Positions 5,300-47,591 of a stretch of 64,000 bases of DNA are shown piece after piece. Numbering within the stretch: the stretch's first letter is position 1; every line of letters begins with the position of its first letter. The stretch comes from Bolinopsis microptera (Eukaryota > Ctenophora > Tentaculata > Lobata > Bolinopsidae). The notes below the pieces were generated by a model. That model worked only from the letters and a program-made list of their open reading frames with translations, was not told the DNA's origin and searched no databases. The DNA lies in contig NW_026971778.1 in assembly GCF_026151205.1 (NCBI RefSeq), forward strand, positions 20,477-84,476, given 5' to 3'. Made by a program: the position numbers and the translations under genes.

Positions 5300-13871
<8,572 letters not shown>

Positions 13872-26483: not shown

Positions 26484-26496
26484 GTGATAGCAGGAA

Positions 26497-29172
26497 ATGT
26501 CGGAAAATCAAGTGAACAGTAGTGGACCACCTATCCCTAAGTTAGGAGATTCTTATCTTTTGTTCAAGAAAGAAGTGAAATTGTGGTCGGCAACCACATT
26601 GATCGAAGAAAAGCGTCAAGCAGGATGTATTGTTTTTATGTTACCTCAGAAGGCTAAGTCTGAGGCAGTGGAAGTTCCACTTGAAGTATTACAAAATGGC
26701 AGAACAGACACAGTAGAAGGTGCTGAAGTAAAGACATCGGGATTAGACTGCCTCCTGGAGGTCCTTGATGGAATTTATCTTGAAGATTTGGCTAAGGAAA
26801 AGTTCAAGACTTATGACATGTTCAGAAAGTTAAGTCGGGAAGGAAGCCAAGATGTCAAGGAGTTTATTTCGTCATTCGAAAAAGTTGTAAAACGAATGGA
26901 AGAGCATGATATTAAGCTTCCACAACCTGTTCTAGCGTATGAATTACTTAGAAGTTGTAATGTTAGTGATTACAAGTATTCTGTTGCCATTACTATGTGT
27001 GGCGACTTAACATACACTAACATGAAAGAAACGATAAAGAAGATCACAACTATGAAAGATCCAGAAAGTTCACACCAGAGAATGATTGGTGTAGTTAAAG
27101 AAGACTCTACATTTTATACTGGTAACTCCTGTATTGAAAATCAGTTTAATATGTATGATGAATACGAAAATGAAAATGAAGTACTGAATGCTCAGGAAAT
27201 GGAGCAGCATGCATATTACAGCCAAGGAAGAAGTGGCTATTCGGGAAGAGGATACCGGGGATATGGCTTTAGAAGAGGAAATGGTAGAGGAGCCAGAGGA
27301 TACCGACAACAGAATCAACAGCAGGAAAGTCAACATCAGGTAGCTGCGGGTGTCAGAAGTGACAGAAAAATGAACCCAACAGACAAATATGGGCGGCATT
27401 TTACTTGTAATGTTTGCAAGTCGATTTACCACTTTTCTAGAGATTGTCCAGAACGCCGCAGAATAAACAAAAGTGGAAATCAGGTAACGAGTGAGAATGT
27501 AAATCTCTTTATGAATGCTCCTGCCCAAGAAGAGAACTCAAATGTTATGGACCAATTTACCAGTGACAACTTTGGGTTAGCAGTTCTTGACAGTGGATGC
27601 AACAAAACGGTTTGTGGAAAGGAATGGTTGAAAGTCTATCTTCAGTCGCTGTCTCCAGAAGATTTCATTAAGGTGTGCTATGAAGAGAAACATGTATCGT
27701 TTAAATTTGGAGATAATGCACCATCAAAGTCAAGGACATGCTGCACATTCCCAGCCGTTGTATGTGACAAACAGGTGAACATTGTGGCACAAGTTGTTGA
27801 TGATCAGATTCCATTACTGATTAGCAAACAGTCAATGAAAGATGCTAGAATGGTATTGGACTTTGGAGATGACACAGTGAAGGCTTTTGGTGTAAAGCAG
27901 AAAATCATCTTCAATGAATCAGGACACTGTAGCATCCCTCTGAGCAAGAATACTATCCATCAACAAGTCTGCTTATGTAAATCAGGAGAGGAAATTGTAA
28001 ACCTGACCATGGAAAGTACTGACAAAAGAAAGATAGCGATTAAGCTACATAAGCAATTCGCCCATCCCCCACCTGAAAAGTTAAAGTCACTCTTAAGAAC
28101 AGCAGGACAGCTTACCAAGGAAATTGCTCGAGAGATTGACACAGTATCGTCTAACTGTGATGTGTGCAAGAGATACAAGCGACCGAATAATCGTCCAGTA
28201 GTCTGTATGCCTTTAGCCAAAGACTTCAATGATACCGTTGCCATGGATATTAAGGTGTACGACAAGAATAAAAACATTTACATCCAGCACATGATTGACC
28301 ATAAAACCAGATTCTCTGCTGCAAAAGTTATCAGGTCAAAAGACAAGGAAACCATTGTGGAAAGTGTCTTTACACACTGGATCAACACTTTTGGACCACC
28401 GAAGAAGTTCATGAGTGACAATGGAGGGGAATATGTTAACAAAAGTTTTGTTGACCTCTGTGAGAAATTCAACGTTCATATCATCACTACTGGAGCTGAA
28501 GCACCTTGGAGCAATGCCCTTGTAGAACGGCACCATGCCCTTTTGTCTAACAGTATGATAAAGATCATGGAAGATACTAAATGCTCAGTTGAAGTTGCTT
28601 TAGCATGGGCCTGTCATGCCAAGAACACTTTGGCAAATGTAAATGGTTTCTCGCCATATCAGTTAATCTTTGGCAAAAATCCATCTCTCACTTCTATTGA
28701 TGATCCCTATGCTAGTCCAACGATTGTTGAAGATGAGAGTCCAAGTGAAACTGTTGCCAAGAACATCTCTGCCATCTACAGTGCTCGAAAAAGAATGATG
28801 GAAAGCGAAGCTAGTGAGATGATCAGACGAGCCATTAGATCAAAAACTAGAGAAGTGTACACTGATGAGATACAGTCGGGTGATATGGTATACTACAAAA
28901 GAAATGATGATAAGCGATGGCGAGGACCAGGAACAGTTATAGGTGTGGACAAGAAAGTTGTAGTTGTAAGACATGGTGGGTATATTGTTCGATGCCACCG
29001 GATTCATGTTGTCAATGTAAATGAACTGTACTCAAAAGATGTTTCCGAAGTAAGTGGGACCGATCCACCAGATGAGCCTAATCCCACTGTTGAAGAATTT
29101 TACAATGCAACTCAAATGCTGAAAAATGATGTTCTGTTGAACGCTTTCGATATTGCTCCTGCTGAAGAGGAT
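26497..29172 (+). pseudogene. Copia Gag, protease and integrase region
   Basis: Of the 892 codons before the break, Gag occupies about residues 1-330 and contains an Arg/Gly-rich stretch followed by a CCHC knuckle, CNVCKSIYHFSRDC. The aspartic protease has LAVLDSGCNKTVCG near residue 365. The integrase has HKQFAHPPP...CDVC as the zinc-binding HHCC region, then the catalytic Asp/Asp/Glu around AMDIKVYDK, FMSDNGGEYV and NALVERHH. An integrase C-terminal segment with MVYYKRNDDKRWRGPG follows. The reading frame is intact until a 683-bp element inserts after Asp892. The ORF then runs a few codons into the insert and stops at 29190. Confidence 0.92.
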
Positions 29173-29855
29173 CCCAGTGACATAAAGTGAGGAATCTAAG
29201 AATCTAATTCCTAGCCATATTAATTTCCATAGCCACGCCGACTAATTTTTGTCAACAAAATTATTAAATCAACTTTAAAATAGTCGCTCTCGGTTGTTAC
29301 ACACTGTAACGCCGCGCACTGTACTTTAATTCTATATTTATCTGAGAAGATGTTCGAATCGAGCGCAAATGCCAGATTCCTGTCAGGATCCTAGTTCTTG
29401 CGCTTAACTTGCGCGTTACCAAATAATCCAAGATATTTCTGTCAGGATCCAAGATTTTCCTACTACCAGTATGGTAGTATGGACTGTTTGGTAGTATGGT
29501 AGTATGGTAGTTGCAGGAACGCGCGAAGATCTATATGTAAATATTACTAAAGCGTACATGGAATCGTATCCTAGTCGGTTAATCCGTCGGTACTATACTA
29601 GCAGATCGCGAGTTCGAGACTCGGAAAGGAATTTTTTCACAATCTTTTGGCAATTATGAATAACTATACTAATGAATTAATAACTATACTAATGAATAAC
29701 TAAACCTCTGTAATATAACTAGCAAAGTAAAATGAAATCGTTATCCGGCCGCGGAGCGGCCGAAAAATTTATGGTAGTCGTTTTAAAAATATATGGTAGC
29801 CGTTTTTTCTTTCCAGACTGGATTCCTAGTCCCTTTTTAAATTTATGTCACTGGG
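29173..29855. mobile_element. 683-bp hAT-like non-autonomous element inside Copia pol
   Basis: Perfect 14-bp inverted termini (CCCAGTGACATAAA and TTTATGTCACTGGG) are flanked by a perfect 8-bp duplication AAGAGGAT (29165-29172 and 29856-29863). Removing it puts the Copia frame back in register. Inside are a duplicated TCTGTCAGGATCC-type segment, repeated GGTAGTATGGTAGTATGG, and a tRNA-like stretch. There is no transposase ORF. Confidence 0.88.
29561..29632 (+). other. tRNA-like segment within the 683-bp element
   Basis: TCCTAGTCGGTTAA resembles an A box. GAGTTCGAGACTC at 29610-29622 gives a T-arm-like hairpin with a TTCGAGA loop and four of five stem pairs. The acceptor stem is not clear. It is best read as a captured or degenerate tRNA sequence. 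Confidence 0.45.
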
Positions 29856-29863
29856 AAGAGGAT

Positions 29864-31228
29864 GATAATAATACTGTAAGCACAGATAATATACCACAAA
29901 GCAACGAAACTAATGTAGAGGAATCAATGTCTACAAAGGAGCAGAAGTTCTGCAAAGCTAAGTCAAAGTATGAGAAGAAGAAGGTCAGTATCGAAGTGTT
30001 AAACACTGACCCCTATAAGTCACAGAAGACTGACGAAATCGAAAAATGGAAGCAAAACAATGTGTATGAAGAGGTTGAGGCTCACGAAGTAGATGATCAG
30101 TTTGTCCCCATTTCGACAAGGTGGGTCACAAATGACAATGGTCATAAGAAAAAGGCCCGTTTGGTAGCTCGAGGTTTTGAGGAAATTCCTCTTGATAGTA
30201 CCGAAAGAGTCAGTCCTACTTGTCGAAAAGAATCTCTAAGACTTCTATTCACAGTAGCAGCATCAATGAAGTGGCCTATTCATTCTCTTGATATAACCTC
30301 AGCATTTCTACAAGGTAAACCAATTGAGCGACTAGTTTATCTTACCCCTCCAAAGGAATGCTATAAACCAGGAATACTGTGGAAGCTGAACACATGTGTT
30401 TATGGACTGTCAGATGCTGCAAAGATGTGGTACAGAAATGTAAAAGACCACAGTGAACAAGCTGGTTTAAGGAAATGTTTATATGATGATGCTCTGTTCT
30501 TTTCAAGAGTTGACAAAGAAGATCTTGCAGGAATAATGACTGTACATGTAGATGACTTCATCTATGCAGGGACCAAAGGTTTTGAGTCTAATATTCACAA
30601 AGATGTGCTGCATGGATTTGAGATTAAGTCACAGGAAGCATCGCGATTCACATATCTTGGACTTGAGGTGGAACAAGATCCAATCTCATATGAAATCACT
30701 GTTGGACAGTCAGATTATATCAGTGCTTTAAAGACCATAGGACTATCAAGTAACAGAAGAAGCCAGAAAACACATGCTCTGACTCACGAAGAGTATGTAC
30801 AGTACAGATCAGGTGTTGGACAACTTATCTGGTTATCTGTCCAAACCAGACCAGATATTTCGTTTGATGCTTGTCAGTTGAGCAATAATCTGAAAGATCC
30901 CAACGTCTCAGACATAATGCTTCACAACAAGATAGTCAAAAAGCTTAAAACTGATGAAGATGCCCCACTGACCTTCAGAGAACTGCCTAACATAAAGAAT
31001 GGAGTAAGACTACTTACATACAGTGATGCATCGTTTGGAAATCTTAGTAACAATGGTAGTCAGTGTGGGTATCTGATACTTATTTCGGATAAAGATAGTA
31101 GAGTCAAAAACCCTGTCTGTTGGAAATCTGTAAAGTTGGACAGAGTCTGTTACAGTACTTTAGCCGCTGAAAGCCTTGCACTCCTGAAAGCGGCTGATCA
31201 CACCATTTTTATTCAGCAAACACTACAA
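29864..31228 (+). pseudogene. Copia reverse transcriptase and first half of RNase H
   Basis: The native coding starts at the Asp codon after the 8-bp duplication; the open frame from 29732 has 44 extra codons that belong to the inserted element. RT motifs seen: RWVTNDNGHKKKARLVARGF, SLDITSAFLQGK, YGLSDAAKMWY and MTVHVDDFIYAG (catalytic VDD). RNase H begins around LLTYSDASFGN, with CWKSVKLDRV and STLAAESLAL. It is cut after the CAA codon at 31226-31228 by the CR1-like LINE A. Confidence 0.92.
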
Positions 31229-31820
31229 CAGGAAAACAACAATTTCAGGAAAACAACAATTTTATTTAGTATCAGTTACAGCAAACAAAAAATATATTTT
31301 ATATAATATAATATAACTAGGACGAACTTTAGTTTAGAAATCTTGGGGGACTTGGAGTAGCAAGAGATTGACTAGAAGGTATATACCTTTTACCAAAAAC
31401 GTCGAAAAGAATCCTGGGTGATACAGGATCGGAGAGTACAGACCATAAAGTTTACGCACCCACCTTTGCCTCCAGAATTCTTGGTTGGTTGAAAATGTAT
31501 GCTAACTTGGTCGTTTATACTCCAAGTCCCTTTGTTAAAAGAAGTAACATTATGTACGTCTGGAGTTAACTTCATTCAATAATAACAATATCAATATAGT
31601 CAATATCAATATCAGACTAAACTATCAAATAAATTATCAAATATTATTTGTTAATTCGATCTGAATAAAAATTTAGTTAAGTTAAGATATTAAATAATTA
31701 AAAACATTACAACAAGTGGTTAAAAACGCCCAAAATTGATCTGAGAGCTTTTCAGTCTATGATACAATCATGATAGTAATATTAAGTGTGTTAAGTGTGT
31801 GCTGCTGCGATAAGAATAGA

Positions 31821-34800
31821 TTACTGCAATTTAAAATTGTTTGGATTCCAAGTATCTTTTAAATCAGCAGCCTGTACTTGTAATAATAGTGCCTTGGTTC
31901 TCAATTTTATCAAGTTAATGGAAGTTTCTAGGCAATTGCTTGAGGTTAGAATTTTTTTATGAACAGTGTTCCAAAGCTTGGCTGCAGTGAACAAAAAAAT
32001 ATTTGATTTATTAAGAAGAATAACCGTTAAACTCGTTGTACGGTTTGAAATGTTGATGGCCTCATAAAGGGAGTATGGGCAGTGGTACTTGATAATCTTA
32101 GAGAATTCTGAAATGCAATGGTACTTGAACAAGTTTTGAACTGTAAGAATTTTTAGTCTATTAAAAATGGGTTTTGTATGCTCCTTTTCAAAATGTTTAT
32201 GGCCTAATCTTTGCATACCATATGGTCTAGTTCTTGCACATGTTGATTGTTTATCTAGATATGAGTCGAGATCACCAAAAAGGATCCTTATACAGTGCTT
32301 CTGAGTGATAAAAAGACTGTCATTGGACCGTTCCTTGATGACAACACCCCAAACACTTATACCATAACTGAGATGTGATTCAAAAAGAGCATTATATATT
32401 TTCAAGTATAGTTCAGCAGGTATAGAGTGCCGGATTCTACAGATTGCACCAGTCATGGTCCGCAGCTTTTTACGGATGTAGTGCATGTGGGCAATCCAGT
32501 TTAGCTTACTATCTATAACAACACCTAAGAATTTGGTATCCTTGACTTTAGTAATAACCTTACCATCGATGAATATTGATCTAGATTCATCTAGCAGGTT
32601 AGCAAATGGTCTAGTCCGCGCACAGGTGTCATCATATTCAGAGGCAGGTTTAAAATGTATGTAGCAGCATTTGGACATGTTGATATGAAGTAGATTACAT
32701 TTCATGTAAATCGAGACATGTTTAAGTACTAAGTTGGCTTTTTTATATGTTGCTTCTCTAGATGGTCCTGATATGAAGATATTAGTGTCATCAGCATAAA
32801 GTACAAATTTCACCTCACTGTCTGAAAAACAGTTTACTATATCGTTCATATACAGTAGGAAGAGTAGTGGCCCAAGAATTGACCCTTGTGGTACTCCAAA
32901 TTTCACGTCCATTGTTACTGATGGTACATCGTTATACATAACATACTGCTTTCTGTTAGTCAAATAGCTTTTAAGTAAGGTAAGTGCTGAACCCCTAATA
33001 CCGTAGGAATTTAACTTGCTTAGAAGAATATTGTGATCAAGGGTGTCAAAGGCTTTGCTCAAGTCAATGAATATGCCCAATACATGTTTATTGCTAGCCA
33101 GAGACTTTGTAACGGAGTCTATAGATTTGTGTAGAGCATGAGTGGTAGAATGGCCTTTTCTAAATCCAAACTGTGAGTCTGTTAGTACACCTTTAGATGT
33201 GAAGAAATTATAAAGGCGTTTGTAAATGATCTTCTCAAAGATTTTTCCAAATAAAGGTAATATTGATACAGGCCGATAATTTTCAATGCATTCCTTATTG
33301 TCTTTCTTGTAAATAGGAATAACTTTACCAGTTTTAAATATACTTGGGAATGTACCACTTTGTATACATGTGTTGTAAAGCCTGGCCAAGGTACCAGCAA
33401 TGAGCTTTGCCGATTTTTTTACAACGATTATAGGTATGTCACTCGCCTTGCCATTTTGAAAATCTCTGATGACCTCGACAATCTCGTCTTCATTAGTTTC
33501 TTCAAGGTATATGGAGTCAGATACTGAATTAGACATGAACTGAGCAAATGATTCTACTGGTTCCAGAGAAATACTATTGTTTGACAATACATTTTTATTG
33601 AGATTACTTGCAAGAGATGTAAAATATTCACAAAATTTGTTAGCAATTATTCGTCTGCAAGTAACTCTCTGGCCATCTATGACAAAATCGTCCTTACATC
33701 TAGACAAATTTTTACCACGGAGTTCATTTATAACTTCCCAAGTCTTTTTCGAATTCATGCTGTACTTCTCGAATTTTTGAGTATAGCACATAGCCTTTGC
33801 CATATTTATTGACCTTTTGAGAAACTTGTCGAATTCCTTGTAGTAGATGTGCTTGTTTGGGTCCCCGTCAGGTAGTTTTAATGTACAAGTCTTCTTCCAT
33901 TCGAAATACAACCTAGCTTTCTTATCGATGGAATTAATTAGGCCCTGGGTAATCCAAGGGTTGGTTATGCTGTTACGTTTAGTGGTTCTAGGAGTTAGAA
34001 GTTTGCAAGACAAATCTATCTTTTCTTGAAATAACTGCATGAAAGAATCAAATGTGTTACAGCTGTGGTGGAACCTATCTACATCGTTTTCTATTTCAAG
34101 ACAGAGCTTTTCTAAGTTAGCATTACTATAGTCGTAGTGTATAGTAATTTTGTCTGATGAATCAGGTGTTGGCACAGAGTCAGGGGAAAGTTCAATAAGA
34201 GTGAATATAGGGTGATGGTGGGAGATCTTGTCAGATATCACACCAGAAATAAGGGTTTGATCTACTACATTGGTATGGATATTGTCAATACAGGTCCTGG
34301 AACAGCCAGGCATTTGGTGAGTTGGTACTGATATGGTTGGTATGAAGCCGTTGTTGAATATTATTTCTTGGAATTTGTCCTCTGATGGAGATGGGTCCTT
34401 CAACATGTTTATATTGAAATCACCAAGAATATATACTTTTTTGCCATTCAGTTTTGAGAGAATACATTCATATGCTTCGTTGAACAGTTCAAGTGATGCG
34501 TTTGGGGGACGGTATATAACCCCTACAACAGTTGGGTCTTGCAAGCTAGTGATGGATACGAACAGTGATTCTATGTGTTCATTACAGAGAGATAAGCCAG
34601 GGATTTTGTTAAAGTTAAAGGAGTTGTGCAGGTAAAGACACACTCCTGATCCTTTACCCTTGAACTGGTTTTTCTTTTGACAAAAATAACGTGATTGGTA
34701 ACAGGAGGAGTATCCGTTAAGCTGATACAGAGTTCCATTTTCGGGATTAGTATTTGTTTCTGCAAGACCGATAACAGAGAATTTGTGGTCGATACAAGAC

Positions 34801-35225
34801 AGCTCAACTGCAAAGTTGTCAAAGTTTGATGCATTTCCATCAATATTTAGGAATAATTTGGACAAATATTTAGCTGAATTTTTAGGTAGGATGGTAGCAT
34901 TCAACTCAGTTATGGAGAATGTTTTGCAATTTTCAAGAATCTTTGAGCTATTGTAGATAGATTCAATATAATTAACTGGCTCATCATCAATGAGGCCATT
35001 GTTTGCAAAGTGTGGAGCTTGGTAGAAAGGGTTGTACCGTACAATATCATTGGCATCAGTGCATATTTTGCAGTATGTTGCATCTCGAAATTTGGTTATG
35101 TTATCATCAGTTTTACATTTTTTGTGCATTATTTTGTCACACATCTGACAAATCAAAAATGGATGTCCAGCACGCACAGGTCTATCGCAACAGCAGCAGA
35201 TTTCGCATATCAGTTTGACTACCAT
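31821..35225 (-). CDS. LINE A ORF2: zinc finger, APE-type endonuclease, reverse transcriptase
   Basis: This intact protein of 1134 residues starts with a Cys/His-rich PHD/RING-like finger (CEICCCCDRPVRAGH, CDKIMHKKC, CKIC). An APE-type endonuclease at about 110-345 shows IGLAETN, YILGDFNINM and a SHHHPIF segment in place of the usual SDH. The RT at about 560-850 has GIFIDLSKAFDTLDH, GVPQGSILGPLLFLLYMND and FVLYADDTNIF. The tail carries FLGVVIDSKLNW. The architecture matches CR1/L2-group LINEs. The start codon overlaps the ORF1 stop by seven nucleotides, suggesting coupled translation. It is intact although its ORF1 is broken by LINE B, so it can no longer work in cis. Confidence 0.92.
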   Translation of the reverse strand: MVVKLICEICCCCDRPVRAGHPFLICQMCDKIMHKKCKTDDNITKFRDATYCKICTDANDIVRYNPFYQAPHFANNGLIDDEPVNYIESIYNSSKILENCKTFSITELNATILPKNSAKYLSKLFLNIDGNASNFDNFAVELSCIDHKFSVIGLAETNTNPENGTLYQLNGYSSCYQSRYFCQKKNQFKGKGSGVCLYLHNSFNFNKIPGLSLCNEHIESLFVSITSLQDPTVVGVIYRPPNASLELFNEAYECILSKLNGKKVYILGDFNINMLKDPSPSEDKFQEIIFNNGFIPTISVPTHQMPGCSRTCIDNIHTNVVDQTLISGVISDKISHHHPIFTLIELSPDSVPTPDSSDKITIHYDYSNANLEKLCLEIENDVDRFHHSCNTFDSFMQLFQEKIDLSCKLLTPRTTKRNSITNPWITQGLINSIDKKARLYFEWKKTCTLKLPDGDPNKHIYYKEFDKFLKRSINMAKAMCYTQKFEKYSMNSKKTWEVINELRGKNLSRCKDDFVIDGQRVTCRRIIANKFCEYFTSLASNLNKNVLSNNSISLEPVESFAQFMSNSVSDSIYLEETNEDEIVEVIRDFQNGKASDIPIIVVKKSAKLIAGTLARLYNTCIQSGTFPSIFKTGKVIPIYKKDNKECIENYRPVSILPLFGKIFEKIIYKRLYNFFTSKGVLTDSQFGFRKGHSTTHALHKSIDSVTKSLASNKHVLGIFIDLSKAFDTLDHNILLSKLNSYGIRGSALTLLKSYLTNRKQYVMYNDVPSVTMDVKFGVPQGSILGPLLFLLYMNDIVNCFSDSEVKFVLYADDTNIFISGPSREATYKKANLVLKHVSIYMKCNLLHINMSKCCYIHFKPASEYDDTCARTRPFANLLDESRSIFIDGKVITKVKDTKFLGVVIDSKLNWIAHMHYIRKKLRTMTGAICRIRHSIPAELYLKIYNALFESHLSYGISVWGVVIKERSNDSLFITQKHCIRILFGDLDSYLDKQSTCARTRPYGMQRLGHKHFEKEHTKPIFNRLKILTVQNLFKYHCISEFSKIIKYHCPYSLYEAINISNRTTSLTVILLNKSNIFLFTAAKLWNTVHKKILTSSNCLETSINLIKLRTKALLLQVQAADLKDTWNPNNFKLQ

Positions 35226-35557
35226 GACTGGATTACAGATCTACGAGAACGTGGGGAAAATCTATTTTGGGCCTTGGTAACATCACTGAACAACCTCCCA
35301 TCAACGGGGCTACCTAGAATCTTATGGGCAATTGCCCGGGAGAGTTTGAAGATACCGCTTGACCCCAGGTGGATTGGGTCATCCGGCTTCTTGTACCTAC
35401 AAAACTGTTTGTTCAGTAGACCCTCCTCATCGACAAAACTATCAAAATCTAAATTTCCTATTCTAGCGTTGGTATTACAGTACCCAAACAATATACTATT
35501 AAACTCCATGGCTCTCTCATTTAGCCAGGAGGACCTAGTTGGTAGGATTGGTGAAAC
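35219..35557 (-). pseudogene. LINE A ORF1, C-terminal fragment (end of SGNH hydrolase)
   Basis: This piece starts at the Val codon in the 7-bp duplication AAACTAT and continues VSPILPTRSSWLN through the DDPIHLG block, which carries the catalytic Asp and His of SGNH hydrolases. Its N-terminal partner lies at 42203-43825, displaced by LINE B. The open frame extends a few codons into the LINE B tail up to 35581, but those are not native. Confidence 0.9.
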
Positions 35558-36093
35558 TATCAAGAAAACAACAATTTTCAAGAAAACAACAATTTTTTAT
35601 TTAAATCAATTATAGCAACAATTTGAATAACTTTAAAGTTCTTCTATTACCATGGAATATACTACGGGTATGGTGACTTGGGCTATTGGGTTGTTAAGTA
35701 GATTAAGATTAGTAAACCTGCACTTGCATTGTATTTATAAAAACTAGAAATTAGGCTTCACGGTAAAATGGAGAAGCAGGCTGATCTTGGAGAGAGCAGA
35801 CCGTAAAGTTTACGCACCCACCAGGGCTACCTACCTACCCCAGTTGTTCTTTTTGGTTTATCAGCTTGTATTGTTATATTTATGGACCCCAAGTCACCAC
35901 ACTAAGAAGGAGTATGTAAAAAAAAAAAAAAAAAATAATAATAAGTTAAGTTAATATCATCATATCAGTTTAAAACAGTAAATGCTAAGTAGAGGATTGA
36001 ATTTCCTAGTTAATTTAATGGTTCAAACGTTTGGGAATATAATAATGTTGGTATTTGTATCTGCTGCAGCAATAATATCGATATGTCATTTGT

Positions 36094-39000
36094 CTATAAA
36101 ATTTTCGCCACTTCAATAGATATTGGGTCGGCAATTTGGTGAGTGAGTGATGAACTGGTTTGGTCTGTGACTGAGTGAGGGGCGATGTGAAAGTTGTGGT
36201 AAGTCCAGGTGTTATTATTGTTGATGGATTGGGATCCCAGGATGATACTTTTACAGCGTAATTTAACCAAAGATACAGAAGTAGTGAGGATTTCCCCATT
36301 CTCATTTAGAATCCGTTTATGTATGCTATTCCACAATTTGGAGGCTATATAAAGAAACGTGTTGGATTTTCTTGGGAGGATTATGACATTACTTGTATCA
36401 CGTTTTGATGAGTCTATAGTACAATACAACGAGTATGGAGTGCGAAATTTCATAATTCGAAATATCTCAGATATACAGTGGTATTTGTACAAGTTTTGAA
36501 CAGTAAGCAATTTTAGTCGATTAAAAATGGGCTTGGTGTGCTCCTTTTCGAAAAAAGCAGCTCCTAACCTCTGTTTTGTATAAGGTCTGGCTCGTGCACA
36601 AGTGGCATGTTTGTCAAGGTATGCATTTAGGTCTCCAAAAAGGATTCTTATACAACGTTTCTGAGTTATGAACAGCTTATCGTTTGGTTGGTCTTTGAGG
36701 GCTGAGCCCCAAACACTTATTCCGTAAGCAAGATGTGATTCCAATAATGCAGAGTATATTTTTTGGTAGTGTTCCCCTGGAACTGAATGTTTAATCCTGT
36801 TAAGTGCTCCTGTAGTGGATCTAATTTTTTTTCTTAGATATTCTATATGTGGGCCCCAGCTAAGTTTTTCATCAATTACTACACCAAGAAATTTGGTGTT
36901 GCTAACCTTGACAATTTTGTGTCCATTTATAAATATTCCTTGTGATTTGTCATATTCATTGGCATACGGCCTAACTCTGGCGCAGGTTTCATCAGATTCG
37001 TATGCAGGTAGAAAATGTATGTAGCAGCATTTAGACATATTTATATGTAAGAGATTACTTCTCATGAATTTGCATACGAAATCAAGAACTTTATTGGCCT
37101 TCAAGTATGTTGATTCTTTGGACGGTCCAGTGATAAATATATTTGTGTCATCAGCATAGAGCACAAATTTGCATTCATCACCTTTGTAACAGTTTATTAT
37201 GTCGTTCATATATAATAAGAAAAGTAGAGGGCCTAGTATGGAACCTTGGGGAACTCCATATTTTACATTCATAGTCTCTGATGTAGTGTTGAGAAATGAA
37301 ACATACTGTGATCTATCCGATAAATAGCTTTTTAGAAGTCCTAGAGCTAGACCTCTAACCCCATAATTTTCCAGTTTCCTCAGGAGAATGCCATGGTCAA
37401 GAGTGTCAAAAGCTTTGCTTAGGTCAATAAAGATTCCTAGAACATGATTACCACTGGATGTTGATGTTGTGATTGAATGAACTGATTTGTGGAGTGCATG
37501 TGAGGTTGAGTGGCCTTTTCGAAAACCAAATTGTTCATTACTGAGAATGTCATTAGCAGTGAAAAAGGTATAAAGCCGTTTGTATATTATTTTTTCAAAT
37601 ATCTTACCAAAGATTGGCAATATTGACACAGGTCTATAATTTTCAATATTTTCTTTGTTATCTTTTTTATGGATAGGAGTTACTTTGCCTATTTTGAATA
37701 TGGATGGGAACGTGCCTTTTTGAATACATGTATTATACAAATTTGCTAATATGTTGGATAAGAGATAAGCCGGTTTCTTGATAACTGCTATTGGTATATC
37801 ACTGGCTTTTCCGTTAACGAATTCTTGAATTATTTCAAGAATCTCCTCAGGATGAGTTTCTTCTAGATGTATTGAACTGTTGACTGATTTCGACATAAAC
37901 TCAACAAATGATTGCATTGGTTGGATAGACAGTTGGTTGTCGGACAAAACTTTCTCATTTAAATTACTAGCTAAAGATGTAAAGTAACTATTGAATTTGT
38001 TTGCAATTGTCCGCCTACAAATTACTCTAGTTCCATCTATAATGAAGTCATCTTTTAGCTGATTCTTCTTTTTGCCACGAAGCTCGTTGATTATTTGCCA
38101 GGTTTTTTTGGAGTTATGGCTATTTTTCTCAAACTTTTCAGCATAATACCTGGTTTTGGCAGTTTTTATGGCAATTTTAAGATATTTTGAGTAGTCCTTG
38201 TAAACATTATGTTTTTCCGGATCCCCATCTGGAATTAACAATGTTTCTGTTTTTTTCCATTCAAAATAAAGTCTGGCTTTTTTCTCCACAGAGTTGATAA
38301 GGCCGTTTGTGATCCATGGATTTGTTATGTTATTTCGTTTGGTGGTTTTTGGTGAAGCCAATTTGCAAGATATATCTATCTTTTCTTGAAACAGATCCAT
38401 GAAGGATTCAAAAGAGTCACATCTGTGGTAGAATGTATCTATGTCGTTTTCAATTTCTTCACAGAGCTTATCAAGGTTTGCATTACTATAGTTATAATAA
38501 ATGGTTGTTTTTTCAGGTGGTTTATTCTGTTCCGAACTAGCATCAGAATTCATTACTTGAAGGCAGAAAATGGGCTGGTGATGTGAAGCACTATCCTGAA
38601 TTACTCCAGATATAGTTGATGAGTGAATGTCATTAGTGTGTATGTTATCAATGCACGTTTTTGAGCAGTGGGGCATTTGGTGTGTGGGAATGGATATTGT
38701 GGGCGTGAACCCATGACTATAAATAACTTCTTCAAATATATCTTCATCTGGGCCTGATAAATTGGTTATGTTAACATTGAAGTCCCCTAATATGTATGCT
38801 TTATGTCCTTTCAGTGCAGTAAGAACTTCTTTATACTGTGCATTGAAGTTAGCAAGTGGATTGCTTGGTGAGCGGTATACAACTCCAACTGTTACTGGTT
38901 CTGGAGCATTACTTATTGTTACAAATAGGGACTCAAAGTGCTCTGTACAAACAGATAACTTTTCAATCACACTAAAGTTAAAGGAGTTGTGAATGTAGAG

Positions 39001-39597
39001 AGAAACTCCACTTCCTTTCCTTTTTACCTGTTGTGTCTTATTAGAAACGAAGCGTTTTTGGTAACATGAAGTATAGTCTTTAAGTTGGTACAGCTGACTA
39101 TTGCAGGGATCAATGTTTGTTTCTGCTAGACCTATCACAGAAAATTTATGGTCTATGCAGGCTAATTCTAAAGCCAATTTGTCAAAGTTAGTACCATTTC
39201 CATCAATATTTCGAAAGTAGTGTGAGAAAATGCTCTTTGATGTTGATTGAGGAATCTGCTTTATGAGGTTGTTGAAGTTTTTAGTAGAATATGATTGACA
39301 GTTCTCAAGAGTTTTTGAGATTGTACCTATTGAGTCTATATAGTCGTGAGGTTCATTGTCAAGTAGTTCGTTGTTTGAAAAGTGAGGTGCTTGATAGAAT
39401 GGATTATAACGAATTATATCATGATTTTGAATACAGTTTGAGCAGTAAGTTTTTTCTCTAAAAGTGGCAATGTTTTCCTGTGTTTTACATCTCTTGTGAA
39501 TGATGCAGTCACACTTATTGCAATTTATAAATGGGTGTCCAGCACGAATAGGTTTGCTGCAGCAGACACAGTTCTCACATATACGTTTGGCTATCAT
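36094..39597 (-). CDS. LINE B ORF2: zinc finger, APE-type endonuclease, reverse transcriptase
   Basis: This intact 1167-residue protein is homologous to ORF2 of LINE A throughout. The Cys/His finger (CENCVCCSKPIRAGH, CDCIIHKRC, CSNC) fills residues 7-58. The endonuclease has IGLAETN, AYILGDFNVNI and SHHQPIF. RT motifs are GIFIDLSKAFDTLDH, GVPQGSILGPLLFLLYMND and FVLYADDTNIF. It is about 30 residues longer than the LINE A protein at the C-terminus. Its ATG overlaps the ORF1 stop as ATGA (39597-39594), a stop-start layout that would allow termination-reinitiation. With both ORFs open, this copy could be a source element. Confidence 0.95.
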   Translation of the reverse strand: MIAKRICENCVCCSKPIRAGHPFINCNKCDCIIHKRCKTQENIATFREKTYCSNCIQNHDIIRYNPFYQAPHFSNNELLDNEPHDYIDSIGTISKTLENCQSYSTKNFNNLIKQIPQSTSKSIFSHYFRNIDGNGTNFDKLALELACIDHKFSVIGLAETNIDPCNSQLYQLKDYTSCYQKRFVSNKTQQVKRKGSGVSLYIHNSFNFSVIEKLSVCTEHFESLFVTISNAPEPVTVGVVYRSPSNPLANFNAQYKEVLTALKGHKAYILGDFNVNITNLSGPDEDIFEEVIYSHGFTPTISIPTHQMPHCSKTCIDNIHTNDIHSSTISGVIQDSASHHQPIFCLQVMNSDASSEQNKPPEKTTIYYNYSNANLDKLCEEIENDIDTFYHRCDSFESFMDLFQEKIDISCKLASPKTTKRNNITNPWITNGLINSVEKKARLYFEWKKTETLLIPDGDPEKHNVYKDYSKYLKIAIKTAKTRYYAEKFEKNSHNSKKTWQIINELRGKKKNQLKDDFIIDGTRVICRRTIANKFNSYFTSLASNLNEKVLSDNQLSIQPMQSFVEFMSKSVNSSIHLEETHPEEILEIIQEFVNGKASDIPIAVIKKPAYLLSNILANLYNTCIQKGTFPSIFKIGKVTPIHKKDNKENIENYRPVSILPIFGKIFEKIIYKRLYTFFTANDILSNEQFGFRKGHSTSHALHKSVHSITTSTSSGNHVLGIFIDLSKAFDTLDHGILLRKLENYGVRGLALGLLKSYLSDRSQYVSFLNTTSETMNVKYGVPQGSILGPLLFLLYMNDIINCYKGDECKFVLYADDTNIFITGPSKESTYLKANKVLDFVCKFMRSNLLHINMSKCCYIHFLPAYESDETCARVRPYANEYDKSQGIFINGHKIVKVSNTKFLGVVIDEKLSWGPHIEYLRKKIRSTTGALNRIKHSVPGEHYQKIYSALLESHLAYGISVWGSALKDQPNDKLFITQKRCIRILFGDLNAYLDKHATCARARPYTKQRLGAAFFEKEHTKPIFNRLKLLTVQNLYKYHCISEIFRIMKFRTPYSLYCTIDSSKRDTSNVIILPRKSNTFLYIASKLWNSIHKRILNENGEILTTSVSLVKLRCKSIILGSQSINNNNTWTYHNFHIAPHSVTDQTSSSLTHQIADPISIEVAKIL

Positions 39598-41579
39598 GAC
39601 ATAACTACGGATCTACGAGAACGTGGGGAAAATCTTTTTTGGGCCTTGGTAACATCACTGAACAACCTCCCATCAACAGGGCTACCTAGGATCTTATGGG
39701 CAATTGCCCGGGAGAGTTTAAAGATACCGCTTGACCCCAGGTGGATTGGGTCATCCGGCTTCTTGTATCTACAGAACTGCTTGTCCAGTAGACCCTCCTC
39801 ATCAACAAAACTATCAAAATCTAAAGTGCCTATTCTAGTATTAGTATTACAGTACCCAAATAATAAACTATTAAACTCCATGGCTCTGTCATTCAGCCAG
39901 GAGGACCTAGTTGGAAGGATGGGTGAAACTATAACTTTAGAGTATGGACACATATCACAAATATTCTTGAGCTTCTTTGTCAGCTCATTAGCCCAATGTT
40001 TAACATCATCCCCTCCCCTCTTGATATTATTTACACCACAGTGTACTACAACGTTCTTGTATCCTACACAAAGAACAGGGTCTAACTGATCTATTGTGAA
40101 ACATTCAATTCTTTTCCCAGGCAGTTTGTGACCAAATGTTCCTTTTCCAGCCCCAAATTTGAGGAACCGGGTGTTTGAATCACCAATAATCAAAGTCGCA
40201 TTGGTGCTCCTGCTTACGTAGCGAAAGGTTATACTGTATCTCAATTCCCTCTTATCTGTGCTCTTATCAATACGGTGGTCCCACAGAAACTGGGACTGTT
40301 TGCTCATCACATAGAGACTACGTCCCTCTATTGTCTCTACGATTTCTCCTTCAAGTTGATCCTTTTTTGTGAATTTGACAGAACAATCACCACCTAAGGA
40401 TACTGTAAAAATGGAACTATCATGGACCAATGATTGCTCGTTATCAGAGTGCTTAGGAAGAAAGCTGTTCCCATCGGTGTACCGATTTATCAAGCACTGA
40501 TTGATTGTTGAACTAGGACATTCTTCCTTTATCTTGGAGACAAGCTGATTAAGAACCTCAGGAAATTCTGTTGATGTCGGTTTTTCAGCTTTAGCCCCCG
40601 GGTACTGATAAGGTTCGCCAAAGCTCACAACCCCATGTCCATTTTCGGAGTTACTATCAAAGGCTTCCTTCTGTTGGTCTAAGAAAACTGAAAGCTCAGA
40701 GTTCAATTTTTCATCTACAAATTCTGGGACATACGACAGAATGTGCTTGGACTTAGGGTCGTCTACACTTGCATGCTTCTGTGCATCTAGGAGAAGCTGT
40801 TCTTGGTCTGTTTCACATGGAGCAGGTGACCTTATATGGAAAGGAGGCATGGTCAGATCAGGGGTGGAAACATTTGACGACCTACTGTTTTTAAAACAGT
40901 TGATGTCAAGTTTGAGCTCAGCAAGCTTGTTGTTGATAGAGTCAAGAGTTTTGAGATGGCTATCATTGTCTTTGAGGTTCTTGATGGAGATCTGGATGGC
41001 TTCTAGAGAATGGTGTATAGAGCTACCATCAGATGTAGTGTGACCCGTTGGCATGCTCATGCTGCAGGGAGCTGACAAGTAGGAAGGGGACTTGACTTCG
41101 TTGTCAACTCTCTGTCCATTCACCACAGCGCAAACACTTTCAGCAAGACCTAGCAGGGATAGGAGACCTTCTGCTAGGGTGAGCTTGTTCAGAGATGAAC
41201 AGCTCTTGATCATGTGTGGAGTAATGATTGCAAACTTATTTATTTCAAGTTTTAAGATACTGCAAATGTTAATCTTGATTAAGTCTACCTCGGAGCGTAG
41301 GTTCTGTGCATGGGTTAACAGATAGGTGTCGAGGGGAGCAGATCTATTTGAGAAGAAACTAAGGAGACTGCTGACATTTTTGTCTTCTTCTGAGTCCTGA
41401 TTTTCTGAATGAATTATTTTATCGACATCTCGAAGCATTTCGTCAATATCATCAATGACTGAAGCTGAGGGGGTGGTGGGTGTATCCTGATCGGGAACCG
41501 TAGTGGACGAAGTCTGGTCTGCAGCAGGTTGAGGTTTCTCACACTTTTCTGTTTGAGTGTCAGTGGGGGTTTCCATCAT
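39594..41579 (-). CDS. LINE B ORF1: AlkB-type dioxygenase fused to SGNH hydrolase
   Basis: I place the start at the first of two Met codons at 41579, because LINE A aligns there. An in-frame extension to 41723 is possible; numbering below uses that longer form (709 residues). Residues 50-340 are low-complexity and partly helical, with no family seen. Residues 360-505 match AlkB Fe(II)/2-oxoglutarate dioxygenases: CLINRY, H425-S-D427 and H483 as iron ligands, R495 and R501 in RYSITFR as co-substrate ligands, and FTVSLG. Residues 509-680 are an SGNH hydrolase: IIGDSN (Ser516), HCGVNN and DDPIH (Asp658, His661). CR1 ORF1 proteins with an esterase are known, but the AlkB module is the unusual part. 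It may repair or demethylate element RNA or cDNA, or counter a host modification (inference). Confidence 0.92.
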   Translation of the reverse strand: MMETPTDTQTEKCEKPQPAADQTSSTTVPDQDTPTTPSASVIDDIDEMLRDVDKIIHSENQDSEEDKNVSSLLSFFSNRSAPLDTYLLTHAQNLRSEVDLIKINICSILKLEINKFAIITPHMIKSCSSLNKLTLAEGLLSLLGLAESVCAVVNGQRVDNEVKSPSYLSAPCSMSMPTGHTTSDGSSIHHSLEAIQISIKNLKDNDSHLKTLDSINNKLAELKLDINCFKNSRSSNVSTPDLTMPPFHIRSPAPCETDQEQLLLDAQKHASVDDPKSKHILSYVPEFVDEKLNSELSVFLDQQKEAFDSNSENGHGVVSFGEPYQYPGAKAEKPTSTEFPEVLNQLVSKIKEECPSSTINQCLINRYTDGNSFLPKHSDNEQSLVHDSSIFTVSLGGDCSVKFTKKDQLEGEIVETIEGRSLYVMSKQSQFLWDHRIDKSTDKRELRYSITFRYVSRSTNATLIIGDSNTRFLKFGAGKGTFGHKLPGKRIECFTIDQLDPVLCVGYKNVVVHCGVNNIKRGGDDVKHWANELTKKLKNICDMCPYSKVIVSPILPTRSSWLNDRAMEFNSLLFGYCNTNTRIGTLDFDSFVDEEGLLDKQFCRYKKPDDPIHLGSSGIFKLSRAIAHKILGSPVDGRLFSDVTKAQKRFSPRSRRSVVMS

Positions 41580-42202
41580 GGTGAAGAAGCAATGGGGGTA
41601 CCAGGCAGACCAGGGGGCACCTTCACGTCCAACCAGCACACTCACTGAAAAGAAGGAAGAGCAGAAAGTAGTTTGAAATGTTCTGTTGTGGAAAACAATG
41701 AAAGTGTAAACTGGATTAGTCAAAATGATTCAAAAGATTGAAAAATTGAACAGACTGACGGACTACGACACATGGGACAAGAGAGTGAGTGAGTATGAAA
41801 AATATGAGGTGGTTGGACTGGCAAGCCCTATCATTTAATCAGAATACATTACATATAATCCATAAGCCATATATGTCAGCCTGTTCTTGGAGCACAGCCC
41901 CAAAAGTTATCAGAAGTGATGTTCAAGTTTCAAGTTTAAAATTCTTTCAACACTATCTACACATTAATCAGGGTTGTCCAATTGTCCAATTGTGGATTGT
42001 GGTGTGAATGGAGTTATACATTGCCAAACAGAAACATTATTCACTACAACTACTTAACTTCTTAACAGGTTAAGAGTGCCAGTCTTCTGTTTCAGCACCC
42101 CCTGGACCATCATAGTACCCCCGATGCAGTTGACTTTAGCAAGCCATGGACATATTGGACATCCTCAAATTATTTGTTATATAGTAGTGTTGAAAGTATT
42201 AA

Positions 42203-43825
42203 AACTATAACTTTAGAGTAAGGACAAATTTCACAAATATTCGTGAGCTTCTTCGTCAGCTCATTAGCCCAGTGTTTAACATCACCCCCTCCCCTCTTAA
42301 TATTATTTACACCACAGTGTACTACAACATTCTTATATCCTACACAAAGGGCAGGGTCTAACTGATCTATTGTGAAGCATTCAAGTCTTTTTCCAGGCAG
42401 TTTGTGACCGAATGTCCCTTTTCCAGCACCAAATCGGAGGAACCGGGTATTTGAGTCACCAATAATCAATGTTGCATTGCTACTGCTGCTCACGTAGCGG
42501 AATGTTATACTGAATCTCACGTCCCTCCTTTCACTGCTCTTATCTATTCTGTGGTCCCAGAGGAACTGAGACTGCTTGCTCATGATATATAGACTGCGTC
42601 CCTCTATTGTCTCAATGACTTCCCCACTTTCTGATCCTTTCATTGAGAACTTAACTGAACACTGGCTTCCTAATGATACAGTGAAAATCGAACTATCATG
42701 CACAAGCGAGTTCTCGTTATCCGAGTGTTTAGGGAGAAAACTGCTCTCATCATTGTACCGGTTGATCAGGCATTGATTAATAACTGTTTCAGGGCAAAGC
42801 TTCTTTATCCTTGAGGCAAGTTCAGCAAGAACTTCAGGCAGGTCTTCTGATATGGGCTTAGCAGCTTTTGCCCCGGGGTAATCATATCGTTCACCAAAGC
42901 TTATAACTCCATGCCCGTTTTCTGTGTTCTTGACAAAATCATCGTTCTGTTGAGCAAGGAAATCTAATAGCTGAGAGTTCAAGGTTGTATCAATGAATTC
43001 TGGTAAATAAGACATGATGTGCTTAGACTTAGGGTCGTCTGCACTTGAAGGCTTCTGTGCATCTAGCAGGAGCTGTTCATGGTCTGTTTCACAGGCTGCT
43101 GGTGGCCCTATGATAAAAGGAGGCATGGGCAGGTCAGGAGTGGATACGTTTGAGGATCTGCTGTTTTTGAAACAGTTAATATCAACTTTGAGCTCAGCAA
43201 GCTTGGTGTTTATGGAGTCAAGAGTCCTAAGGTGGCTATCATTGTCTTTCAAGTTTTTAATGGATGTTTGAATATCTTCTAAGGACTTGTGTATAGAGCT
43301 TTCGTTAGAAGTAGTATGACCCATTGGAATGCTGGAGGGGGCTGACAAATAAGAAGGGGACTTAACCTCGTGGTCACATCTCTTGCCACTTATTACAGCA
43401 CAGACATTTTCTGCAAGGCCAAGCAGGGATAGTAGACCCTCTGCTAAGGTGAGTTTTTTAAGAGATGGGCAGCTCTTAACCATAGATGGCGTTATGATTG
43501 CAAATTTGTTCACATCAAGTTTTAGAATGTTACAGATGTTGAGCTTAATGATATCTACCTCTGAGCGCAGGCTCTGCGAGTGAGTCAACAGGAAGTTGTC
43601 AAGGGGGGTAGACCCTGAGAAGAAACTAAGGAGGCTGCTACAATCTTTATTTTCCTCTGATTCGTGGTATTCTGAAAGAATTATATTTTCAACATCCTTC
43701 AGTACTTCGTCAATTTCCACCATAATGGTAGGAGTCGTGGGTGCAGGTGTAGTCTGATCCGGAACCGTAGTAGTTGAAGTCTGGTCCGGAACAGATTGAG
43801 AAGAGTCAGTGGGTGTATCGTTCAT
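42203..43825 (-). pseudogene. LINE A ORF1, N-terminal fragment (AlkB domain and start of SGNH)
   Basis: It starts at the Met aligned with that of LINE B; an open extension reaches 43945. It keeps every AlkB landmark seen in LINE B: CLINRY, KHSDNE, WDHRI and RFSITFR. It also keeps the SGNH blocks IIGDSN and HCGVNN. It is cut within a Val codon by LINE B, and the remaining SGNH part is at 35219-35557. The two copies have diverged at many surface positions while catalytic residues stayed the same, which argues that both enzymatic domains were under selection. Confidence 0.92.
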
Positions 43826-44120
43826 GGCGTAGAAGCAATTGGGGGTACCAGGCAATCCAGGGGGCACCTTCACGTCCAACCAGCACACTCCCTGGAAAGA
43901 AAGAAAAGCAGATAACAATTTCAAATGTTCCGTTGTGGAAAACAATGAAAGTGTATTTAAACTGGATTAGTCAAAATGATTCAAAAGATTGAAAAATTGA
44001 ACAGACTGACGGACTACGACACATGGGACAAGAGAGTGAGTGAGTATGAAAAATATGAGGTGGTTGGACTGGCAAGCCCTATCATTTAATCAGAATACAT
44101 TAAATATAATCCATAAGCCA

Positions 44121-44372
44121 CAAATACTGGGAGATTCTTTAAATGTGACCATAGACTGTTTTATTGACAATAAAGGACTTCTAGAGCTTGTACAGAAGAC
44201 AAAGGACCCCATTGAAAAAATACTGATAGTTACCATGGCATCACTAAGGGAAATGGTTGAGAAGGGTGAAATAACTGTTAACTTTATGCCCTCAAGGACG
44301 ATGCCTGCTGATGTTTTGACTAAGAGAGGGCCTAGTTCTCAAAGTCTGCGTATGTGTTTTGAGAGGGACTAG
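44121..44372 (+). pseudogene. Copia RNase H, C-terminal end
   Basis: Coding resumes in the original frame after LINE A: CFIDNKGLLEL, MASLREMVEKGEI, FMPSRTMPADVLTKRG and then a stop at 44372. This is the usual C-terminus of copia RNase H. A frame open from 44040 has upstream codons that belong to LINE A and are not native. Confidence 0.9.
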
Positions 44373-46452: not shown

Positions 46453-46583
46453 GGTTAAATTACGTTTGGATGTACCATAAAATTTGGGTGTACCACTAAA
46501 GTTATTGATTTAACAAAAAATAGAATCTAAACATCAAATACTTGTTCCACTATGATTATATTATAAATGGAATATTTGTAATA

Positions 46584-47591
46584 TTTATGACGATCAGGAA
46601 AAACTTGTCGAGATCAAGACCCAAATCCGAAAATCAAGGATAGAGTTTTTCAAAGAGAGAAAAGAAGAGGTTTCAAAAGACCTGAATGAAACCCAAAAAT
46701 TGCAATTAGATCTTACATCAGAGAAAGGGGCAAGTTCCTGGCTTTCATCACTCCCACTCAAATCATTTGGATTCTGTCTCAACAAACAAGAATTTAATGA
46801 CGCCCTAGCCCTTAGGTACAACTTTGGAATGAAAGATGCTGCAAGAAAATGTGTATGTGGAAGTGACAACTCAATAAACCACTCATTGATATGCAAAAGG
46901 GGTGGGTATGTATCTCTCCGCCACAATTCATTGAGAGATGTGATAGCAGAGCTATTAGAAACTGCTGGCTGTAAAGATGTTACCACTGAACCTCTCCTCA
47001 TTCCTGTCAACGGGAGAGAATTTCCTGCAGGGGCCAACAAAGCAGATGGAGCTAGATTAGATGTTAGTGCTAGGAGTGTATGGAACCCATTGGAAAGGGC
47101 ATTTTTAGATGTAAGAGTATTTCATGCTCAAGCTCCTTCCAATAAGGCTCTTGGATCTCCAACCACTATGTACAATAGCCATGAGAGACAGAAAAAGAAT
47201 TTATACAATAAAAGGATTGTAGAAGTCGAACATGGGACGTTTACACCGATAGTCCTATCAACCACTGGGGGTATGGGAAGGGAAGCAAATAAGTTCTTCA
47301 AGAAGTTAGCGGATAAACTATCTAGGAAATCAGGCCAACGATATAGTGAGGCAATGACATTTATTAGGAAGAGAGTAAGATTTGACCTATTGAGAACAAC
47401 AATCATAGCTCTTAGAGGAGAGAGAGGGTTTAAAAGTAGTAGTGCAGTAAAAATAGCAGAATTAGATATAAATTTGGAGCCAGTTCTTTAAACTGGCTTA
47501 CTTATACTACTTAAAGGGTGTTCAAGGGTTTTCTATTGAATTTATATTGAATTTTATATAGGGTAATTGTTATATTATGTGTATATTGTTT
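46584..47591 (+). mobile_element. 5'-truncated copy of the PHD/RT/RLE retrotransposon
   Basis: It matches the 3' third of the element at 19733-23160 almost base for base, including about 100 bp of 3' UTR, but in the opposite orientation. The 5' truncation is typical of incomplete target-primed reverse transcription. Confidence 0.92.
46586..47491 (+). pseudogene. RLE retroelement ORF, C-terminal fragment
   Basis: It corresponds to about residues 762-1062 of the full-length protein and retains the CVCGSDNSINHSLIC knuckle and the ADGARLDV and FLDVRVF nuclease blocks. Only about four residue differences are visible (for example FGMKD for FGIKD and GREFPAG for GRELPAG). It has no RT or PHD. Confidence 0.92.

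Follow-up and report, generated by a model that had tools for sequence, protein, structure and literature searches.

Why should a retrotransposon protein join an AlkB-type dioxygenase to an SGNH hydrolase? The question is raised by 64,000 nucleotides of the ctenophore Bolinopsis microptera (contig NW_026971778.1, positions 20,477 to 84,476; the whole stretch is called the window), in which two elements, A and B, carry such a protein in their first open reading frame (ORF1). An original prediction, made from the sequence alone, had proposed two related long interspersed nuclear elements (LINEs) with the same ORF1 architecture, and both ORF1s were found, on the minus strand. The reverse transcriptase and a target-site duplication identify the family as LINE.

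AlkB and SGNH domains in the ORF1 proteins

In ORF1 of A, a low-confidence N-terminus is followed by helices, the AlkB-type dioxygenase and the SGNH hydrolase. The identity of the two enzyme domains is almost certain. The AlkB profile PF13532 (curated cut-off 31.2 bits) matched copy A with 68.3 bits (E 1.3e-18) and copy B with 61.5 bits (E 1.7e-16), and a phmmer search of the PDB with copy A returned ALKBH3 (best E 1.1e-6), ALKBH8 and ALKBH2. A structural test of the HxD-H-R-R residues had been suggested; fold comparison of the predicted structure of A recovered the AlkB fold, with ALKBH3 and ALKBH2 nearest and ALKBH5 lower. The residues named at the outset (H425, D427, H483, R495, R501) were correct and become H377, D379, H435, R447 and R453 when numbering starts at the first Met of A. 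By homology, H377, D379 and H435 are iron ligands, and N365, R447 and R453 are the 2-oxoglutarate (2OG) residues. The SGNH part of A carries GDSN, CGVNN and DPIH. Its fold is backed by structure comparison; the Pfam profile Lipase_GDSL_2 gave 20.2 bits for A (cut-off 32.9) and no listed match for B. The ORF1 esterase of the LINE ZfL2-1 was not among the 50 fold matches listed.

Conservation was counted in an alignment of 48 rows. The iron triad HxD...H is kept in 48, 48 and 47 rows. The 2OG motif departs from the strict form RxNxTxR; its Arg, Thr and Arg are kept in 48, 48 and 47 rows, and the domains match the family motif, which is given as RxxxxxR (PMC9289625, accessible text). The SGNH catalytic residues are kept at S468 (46/48), N517 (45/48), D610 (41/48) and H613 (42/48), the remaining rows being gaps except for two at D610 and one at H613. 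Catalytic activity is predicted from sequence and model, and very probable. Could the AlkB fold instead serve chiefly as a nucleic-acid-binding module of the ORF1 protein, with catalysis secondary or lost? RxSxTxR in place of RxNxTxR would fit this, as would the RRM domains described for many other LINE ORF1s (PMC4120745, in part), none of which was found above the Pfam cut-off in these ORF1s. Retention of the iron and 2OG ligands in 47-48 of 48 rows speaks against such a role, which we consider quite unlikely.

Selection was estimated as the ratio of nonsynonymous to synonymous change (dN/dS) by the Nei-Gojobori method with bootstrap intervals, over AlkB residues 280-455. For A the ratio was 0.159 (0.079-0.249) against B, 0.079 (0.016-0.211) against L047, 0.120 (0.060-0.214) against L044 and 0.159 (0.083-0.250) against L046 (L-numbers are loci of this genome); the comparison with L045 was saturated and yields no value. 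The ratio, which had been put forward as a check between the copies, is therefore 0.08-0.16 across pairs, well under 1. In a second LINE family (L026-L034) the AlkB value was 0.123, the SGNH part being saturated. Ten pairs of Helitron-type frames, described below, gave 0.12-0.29 for AlkB, 0.19-0.51 for SGNH, where one interval extends above 1; the values for the linker were 0.39-0.70. The catalytic residues of both enzymes are complete and under purifying selection.

The genome holds many copies of the protein. Among 956 candidate ORF1 matches in the genome 63 were scored, the window's included; 27 of these span from residue 69 or earlier to residue 697 or later, and 25 of the 27, the window copy among them, have no internal stop. 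A copy on contig C6 differs in 8 of 661 codons, and its 3' tail is of a like kind, with a pair of short tandem units. The long intact copies and this near-identical one are marks of recent activity. A chance motif match, a pseudogene or an assembly artefact is so improbable that it can be set aside: the E-values, the fold, dN/dS well under 1, the many copies on different contigs and the copy with 8 changed codons all speak against it, and what breaks B is the nested A.

The SGNH parts of A and B (39684-40202; 35222-35554) are far closer than the rest of the protein, with a synonymous distance (dS) of 0.295 against 1.30 for AlkB and 0.97 for the N-terminus. A general nucleotide constraint was considered and rejected, as dS is equally low between A and L046 (0.296) but not between A and L044 (0.808). 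Exchange of the C-terminus between subfamilies fits these values better, and the mosaic probably arose in this way.

The domain pair elsewhere in the genome

The pairing is recurrent in the genome (232 contigs searched, 264.65 Mb); the original prediction had not noticed that it extends beyond this LINE family to other LINEs and to a Helitron frame. At least 151 matches to PF13532 were found (587 candidates, 150 scored), and the true number is higher because the window's own copies are absent from the list. Of the loci for which DNA was retrieved, three resemble host genes, namely L021 (ALKBH2, E 3.9e-60) and the ALKBH3-like L022 and L023. Among 50 candidates, 3 matches were stand-alone AlkB relatives of the window domain.

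The transposon loci fall into five groups: (i) the window group with L027, L040 and L049-L052; (ii) L026, L030, L034 and L048, with a further subfamily of 630-residue frames; (iii) L029, L032, L037 and L039; (iv) L053; and (v) L025, L028, L031, L033, L035 and L038. Reverse transcriptase frames were seen at L026, L027, L029, L037, L032 and L034, and L048-L053, of which an ORF1 piece alone was read, are taken as LINEs from ORF1 similarity. Partial alignments of the second frames (ORF2) between groups (i), (ii) and (iii) show 24-32% identity; within group (i) identity is 41-63%. L026 and L034 have ORF2 pieces 99% identical over 527 residues and strongly diverged ORF1s. A swap of ORF1 between them is not claimed, since extra DNA between the two L034 frames may reflect a separate insertion.

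Group (v) is of Helitron type. L033 and L041 (L033:3283-9900, L041:3-3746) are the two pieces in which one frame of 3388 residues was read. It matches SGNH (26.8 bits, under the cut-off), AlkB (76.4), DUF6570 (52.3), Helitron_like_N (80.1) and PIF1 (79.8). Within the group the Helitron domains are shown for this frame only; L031 has DUF6570 in an adjacent frame, and L025, L028, L035 and L038 were assigned from the resemblance of their AlkB and SGNH parts. AlkB precedes SGNH in the LINE frames and follows it in group (v). With L031 as query one clear homologue was found, P0047 from Mnemiopsis; P0048, a bacterial signalling protein matching over 4% of the query, was discarded as spurious.

The SGNH assignment differs in strength between groups. 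In groups (i), (ii) and (v) it comes from profile or Pfam matches, many of them weak, L031 exceeding the cut-off with 36.0 bits. In L050-L053 it comes from tblastn or reading, in L032 from a match of 17.2 bits, below cut-off, and in L029 from reading only (HDS, GVND, DQLH); our own SGNH profile had no match in L029, L032 and L037. The frames of L024, L036, L038 and L039 and one of L040 are broken or short.

Two trees of the AlkB domain were compared, both without L039 and P0033, which lack the motif used to cut out the domain, and without P0048-P0051. The first, of 69 rows, includes E. coli AlkB and has long branches; in it L029, L032 and L037 group with the host ALKBH2/3 rows (95/90). For the second, of 47 rows, 21 near relatives were thinned out and E. 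coli AlkB was dropped (22 rows in all), and 42 transposon and homologue rows split from five host and human ALKBH2/3 rows (98/93). This split is seen without E. coli AlkB and not in the tree with it. In the second tree neither a single LINE clade (approximately unbiased test, p 0.063) nor a grouping of the window group with L026/L034 (p 0.251) was rejected. AlkB may have been acquired once or several times.

Layout and nesting of elements A and B

Table 1. Features of elements A and B, in positions of the window
Feature	Positions	Strand	Remarks
Element A, LINE nested within element B	35561..42201	-	6641 bp between target-site duplications
Element A ORF1	39594..41579	-	661 residues from first Met; stop included in span
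Helical region of A ORF1, residues 82-234	40878..41336	-	AlphaFold secondary structure, predicted local distance difference test (pLDDT)
AlkB-type 2OG-Fe(II) dioxygenase domain of A, residues 280-455	40215..40742	-	Pfam, structure, conservation, dN/dS
SGNH hydrolase domain of A, residues 460-632	39684..40202	-	motifs, fold, conservation; Pfam below cut-off
Element A ORF2	36094..39597	-	Cys/His stretch, endonuclease profiles below cut-off, then reverse transcriptase
Reverse transcriptase domain of A	36874..37674	-	RVT_1, 137.6 bits
Element B ORF1, N-terminal piece, with AlkB domain and start of SGNH	42202..43825	-	interrupted by A
Element B ORF1, C-terminal SGNH part, 111 codons with DPIHLG	35222..35554	-	
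Element B ORF2	31821..35225	-	63% identical to A ORF2
Target-site duplication ATAGTTT, left copy	42202..42208	-	
Target-site duplication ATAGTTT, right copy	35554..35560	-	

The helical region of A ORF1 contains a low-confidence stretch at residues 158-185 (AlphaFold pLDDT). ORF2 of A begins with a Cys/His-rich stretch that is PHD-like when read by eye; the Pfam scan listed no PHD match for element A, and in ORF2 of the related locus L027 the PHD profile reached 16.8 bits, below cut-off. A putative endonuclease is matched by Exo_endo_phos_2 (22.2 bits) and Exo_endo_phos (19.4 bits), both below the Pfam cut-off, and the nearest solved structures to the reverse transcriptase are the L1 and R2 proteins. 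The start ATG of ORF2 overlaps the stop TGA of ORF1 as ATGA, which suggests termination-reinitiation.

Element B has the same gene order. As ATAGTTT stands on both flanks of A, A jumped into B, a point missed at the outset. ORF1 of B reads from 43825 to about 42202, where its frame ends after ...SKVIV because A inserted at that point, and resumes at 35554-35222 with SPILPTRSSWLNERAMEF...DDPIHLG. The claim that both copies keep the catalytic residues thus stands in full for A; the B frame at 42170-43966 is without DxxHL, and for B the DxxH motif holds only if the distant piece carrying DPIHLG is counted.

The 3' ends of A and B (31229-31284, 35561-35618) carry a pair of short tandem units, AAATTGTTGTTTTCTTG and AAATTGTTGTTTTCCTG. 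A 5' stretch is common to both elements, inwards from about 41869 in A and 44120 in B (41793-41869; 43825-44120); its outer part, on the reverse strand, belongs by eye to a copia-like RNase H frame (44040-44372, plus strand). The near-copy of A on contig C6 shares the 3' end, and its match on the 5' side starts only at 41793. Copia-like frames, again by eye, run over 26491-31306, end near 31.3 kb and resume with the RNase H frame at 44.0 kb. Their presence on both sides looks as if B itself had inserted into a long terminal repeat (LTR) element, giving a nesting three deep. Elsewhere in the window, a minus-strand frame of 1082 residues (19835-23083) seems to begin PHD-like and to continue as a reverse transcriptase; its C-terminal part recurs as a near-copy at 46556-47491 on the plus strand. 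Proline-rich repeats open in three minus-strand frames at 8878-9408, which looks like a short-unit tandem array.

Candidate roles of the AlkB domain

SGNH in a LINE ORF1 and AlkB in a retrotransposon are each known. CR1/L2 LINEs with a type IV esterase ORF1, such as ZfL2-1, have, as here, SGNH in ORF1 and a reverse transcriptase in ORF2, where they also have an endonuclease that is putative in the present elements, and an L2 subgroup has PHD at the start of ORF2, where a PHD-like stretch was read by eye here (PMC3905857, PMC4120745, accessible parts). The present ORF1s differ in that AlkB precedes the SGNH domain. The accessible part of a 2014 survey of 448 Jockey-superfamily elements describes five ORF1 types without mention of AlkB or a dioxygenase (PMC4120745). 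In the orchid Phalaenopsis, a Ty3/Gypsy element likewise carries an AlkB-type dioxygenase with intact cofactor residues; it is an LTR element of a plant, with a separate ORF of ALKBH5 type, whereas the elements here are non-LTR, with the domain fused to SGNH in ORF1 and of ALKBH3/2 type by fold (PMC9289625, in part). A platyfish Helitron has captured an SGNH hydrolase, according to the part of the source available (PMC4021074), and the Helitron frame here has AlkB as well, with Helitron_like_N and PIF1 in the same long frame. AlkBs of positive-strand RNA viruses and giant viruses, to which BFVD matches were found, also place the fold on a selfish element, but in viruses and in another protein context; those of viruses have been proposed to repair RNA (PMC9289625, in part). 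Human ALKBH3 and ALKBH2, the nearest folds and sequence neighbours, are stand-alone host repair enzymes. No paper on AlkB in LINEs or Helitrons appeared among the matches listed in open-access searches; subscription papers, preprints and Repbase reports lay outside the search, so an earlier note may exist there.

Judged by sequence and model, the domain leans to the repair type of ALKBH3/ALKBH2 rather than to the ALKBH5 type that acts on N6-methyladenosine (m6A). In every reading we infer the substrate from the fold. The reading we favour, though its chances fall a little short of even, is that the domain would directly reverse methyl damage on the intermediate of its own element. In cis, LINE ORF1 proteins coat the RNA that encodes them, and Helitrons are considered to transpose as single-stranded DNA. 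E. coli AlkB prefers N1-methyladenine (m1A) and N3-methylcytosine (m3C) and prefers single-stranded DNA, and AlkB removal of a methyl mark that stops reverse transcriptase restores read-through, as shown with N1-methylguanine (PMC7968990, accessible text). The ORF1 protein would bind its RNA in cis, and its AlkB domain would oxidatively strip lesions of the m1A and m3C type, which would hinder reverse transcriptase, from the single-stranded template before target-primed reverse transcription; nascent single-stranded cDNA may be a further substrate. The SGNH domain might localise or release the ribonucleoprotein at membranes, membrane targeting having been proposed for the ZfL2-1 domain (PMC3905857, in part). 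Occurrence of the pair in a Helitron, a single-stranded DNA mover, fits a need tied to single-stranded intermediates and not to RNA alone.

Several observations weigh against repair of the intermediate. The A domain resembles ALKBH3 only weakly (26% across the fold). ALKBH2/3 and E. coli AlkB have RxNxTxR, and ALKBH2/3 have HxDDE; here RxSxTxR stands in 47 of 48 rows and HxDNE in 28 (HxDDE in 20), so that substrate choice may differ. AlkB homologues with Ser in place of the Asn of RxNxTxR exist. Low dN/dS is not special to AlkB, being 0.155 for the N-terminus and 0.134 for SGNH between A and B, and one Helitron AlkB pair (0.290), with almost no synonymous change, has an interval up to 0.853. 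The presence of m1A or m3C on the element's template is itself an assumption.

Alternatively, the domain may erase a host mark, m6A on element RNA or N6-methyladenine (6mA) on DNA, that sequesters or silences the element. 6mA in ctenophores was reportedly described by Dabe et al. in 2015. Recurrence across several element types is what an arms race would produce, and the orchid domain, the only one on a transposon found in the literature, demethylates m6A in vitro; however, that domain belongs to the ALKBH5 type (PMC9289625, in part), and the neighbours here in fold and sequence are ALKBH3/ALKBH2, with ALKBH5 lower. We regard an eraser as unlikely. Action in trans on host RNA or DNA (e.g. tRNA or mRNA), shifting the cell towards transposition, would fit the presence of ALKBH8, a tRNA enzyme, among the sequence neighbours, but fusion to an ORF1 protein, which as a rule remains on the RNA that encodes it, favours cis, and we hold action in trans to be very unlikely.

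The same enzyme pair in unrelated jumping genes of one genome suggests that mobile DNA benefits from carrying it, and pairing with the esterase in unrelated elements calls for a common cause. Repair of the intermediate and erasure of host marks may both fall under a broader proposal, which we hold to be less likely than not: AlkB and SGNH could form a functional unit, acquired or exchanged by Helitrons and by three or more deeply separated groups of LINEs, all with a single-stranded intermediate, which keeps that intermediate readable or strips host marks from it and would be a general counter-measure of selfish elements, not peculiar to one LINE family. Nucleic-acid demethylation becomes a candidate activity of LINE ORF1 proteins and of Helitrons, and these naturally occurring elements, present in many copies, allow one to ask whether transposition is limited by methyl lesions or by methyl marks of the host.
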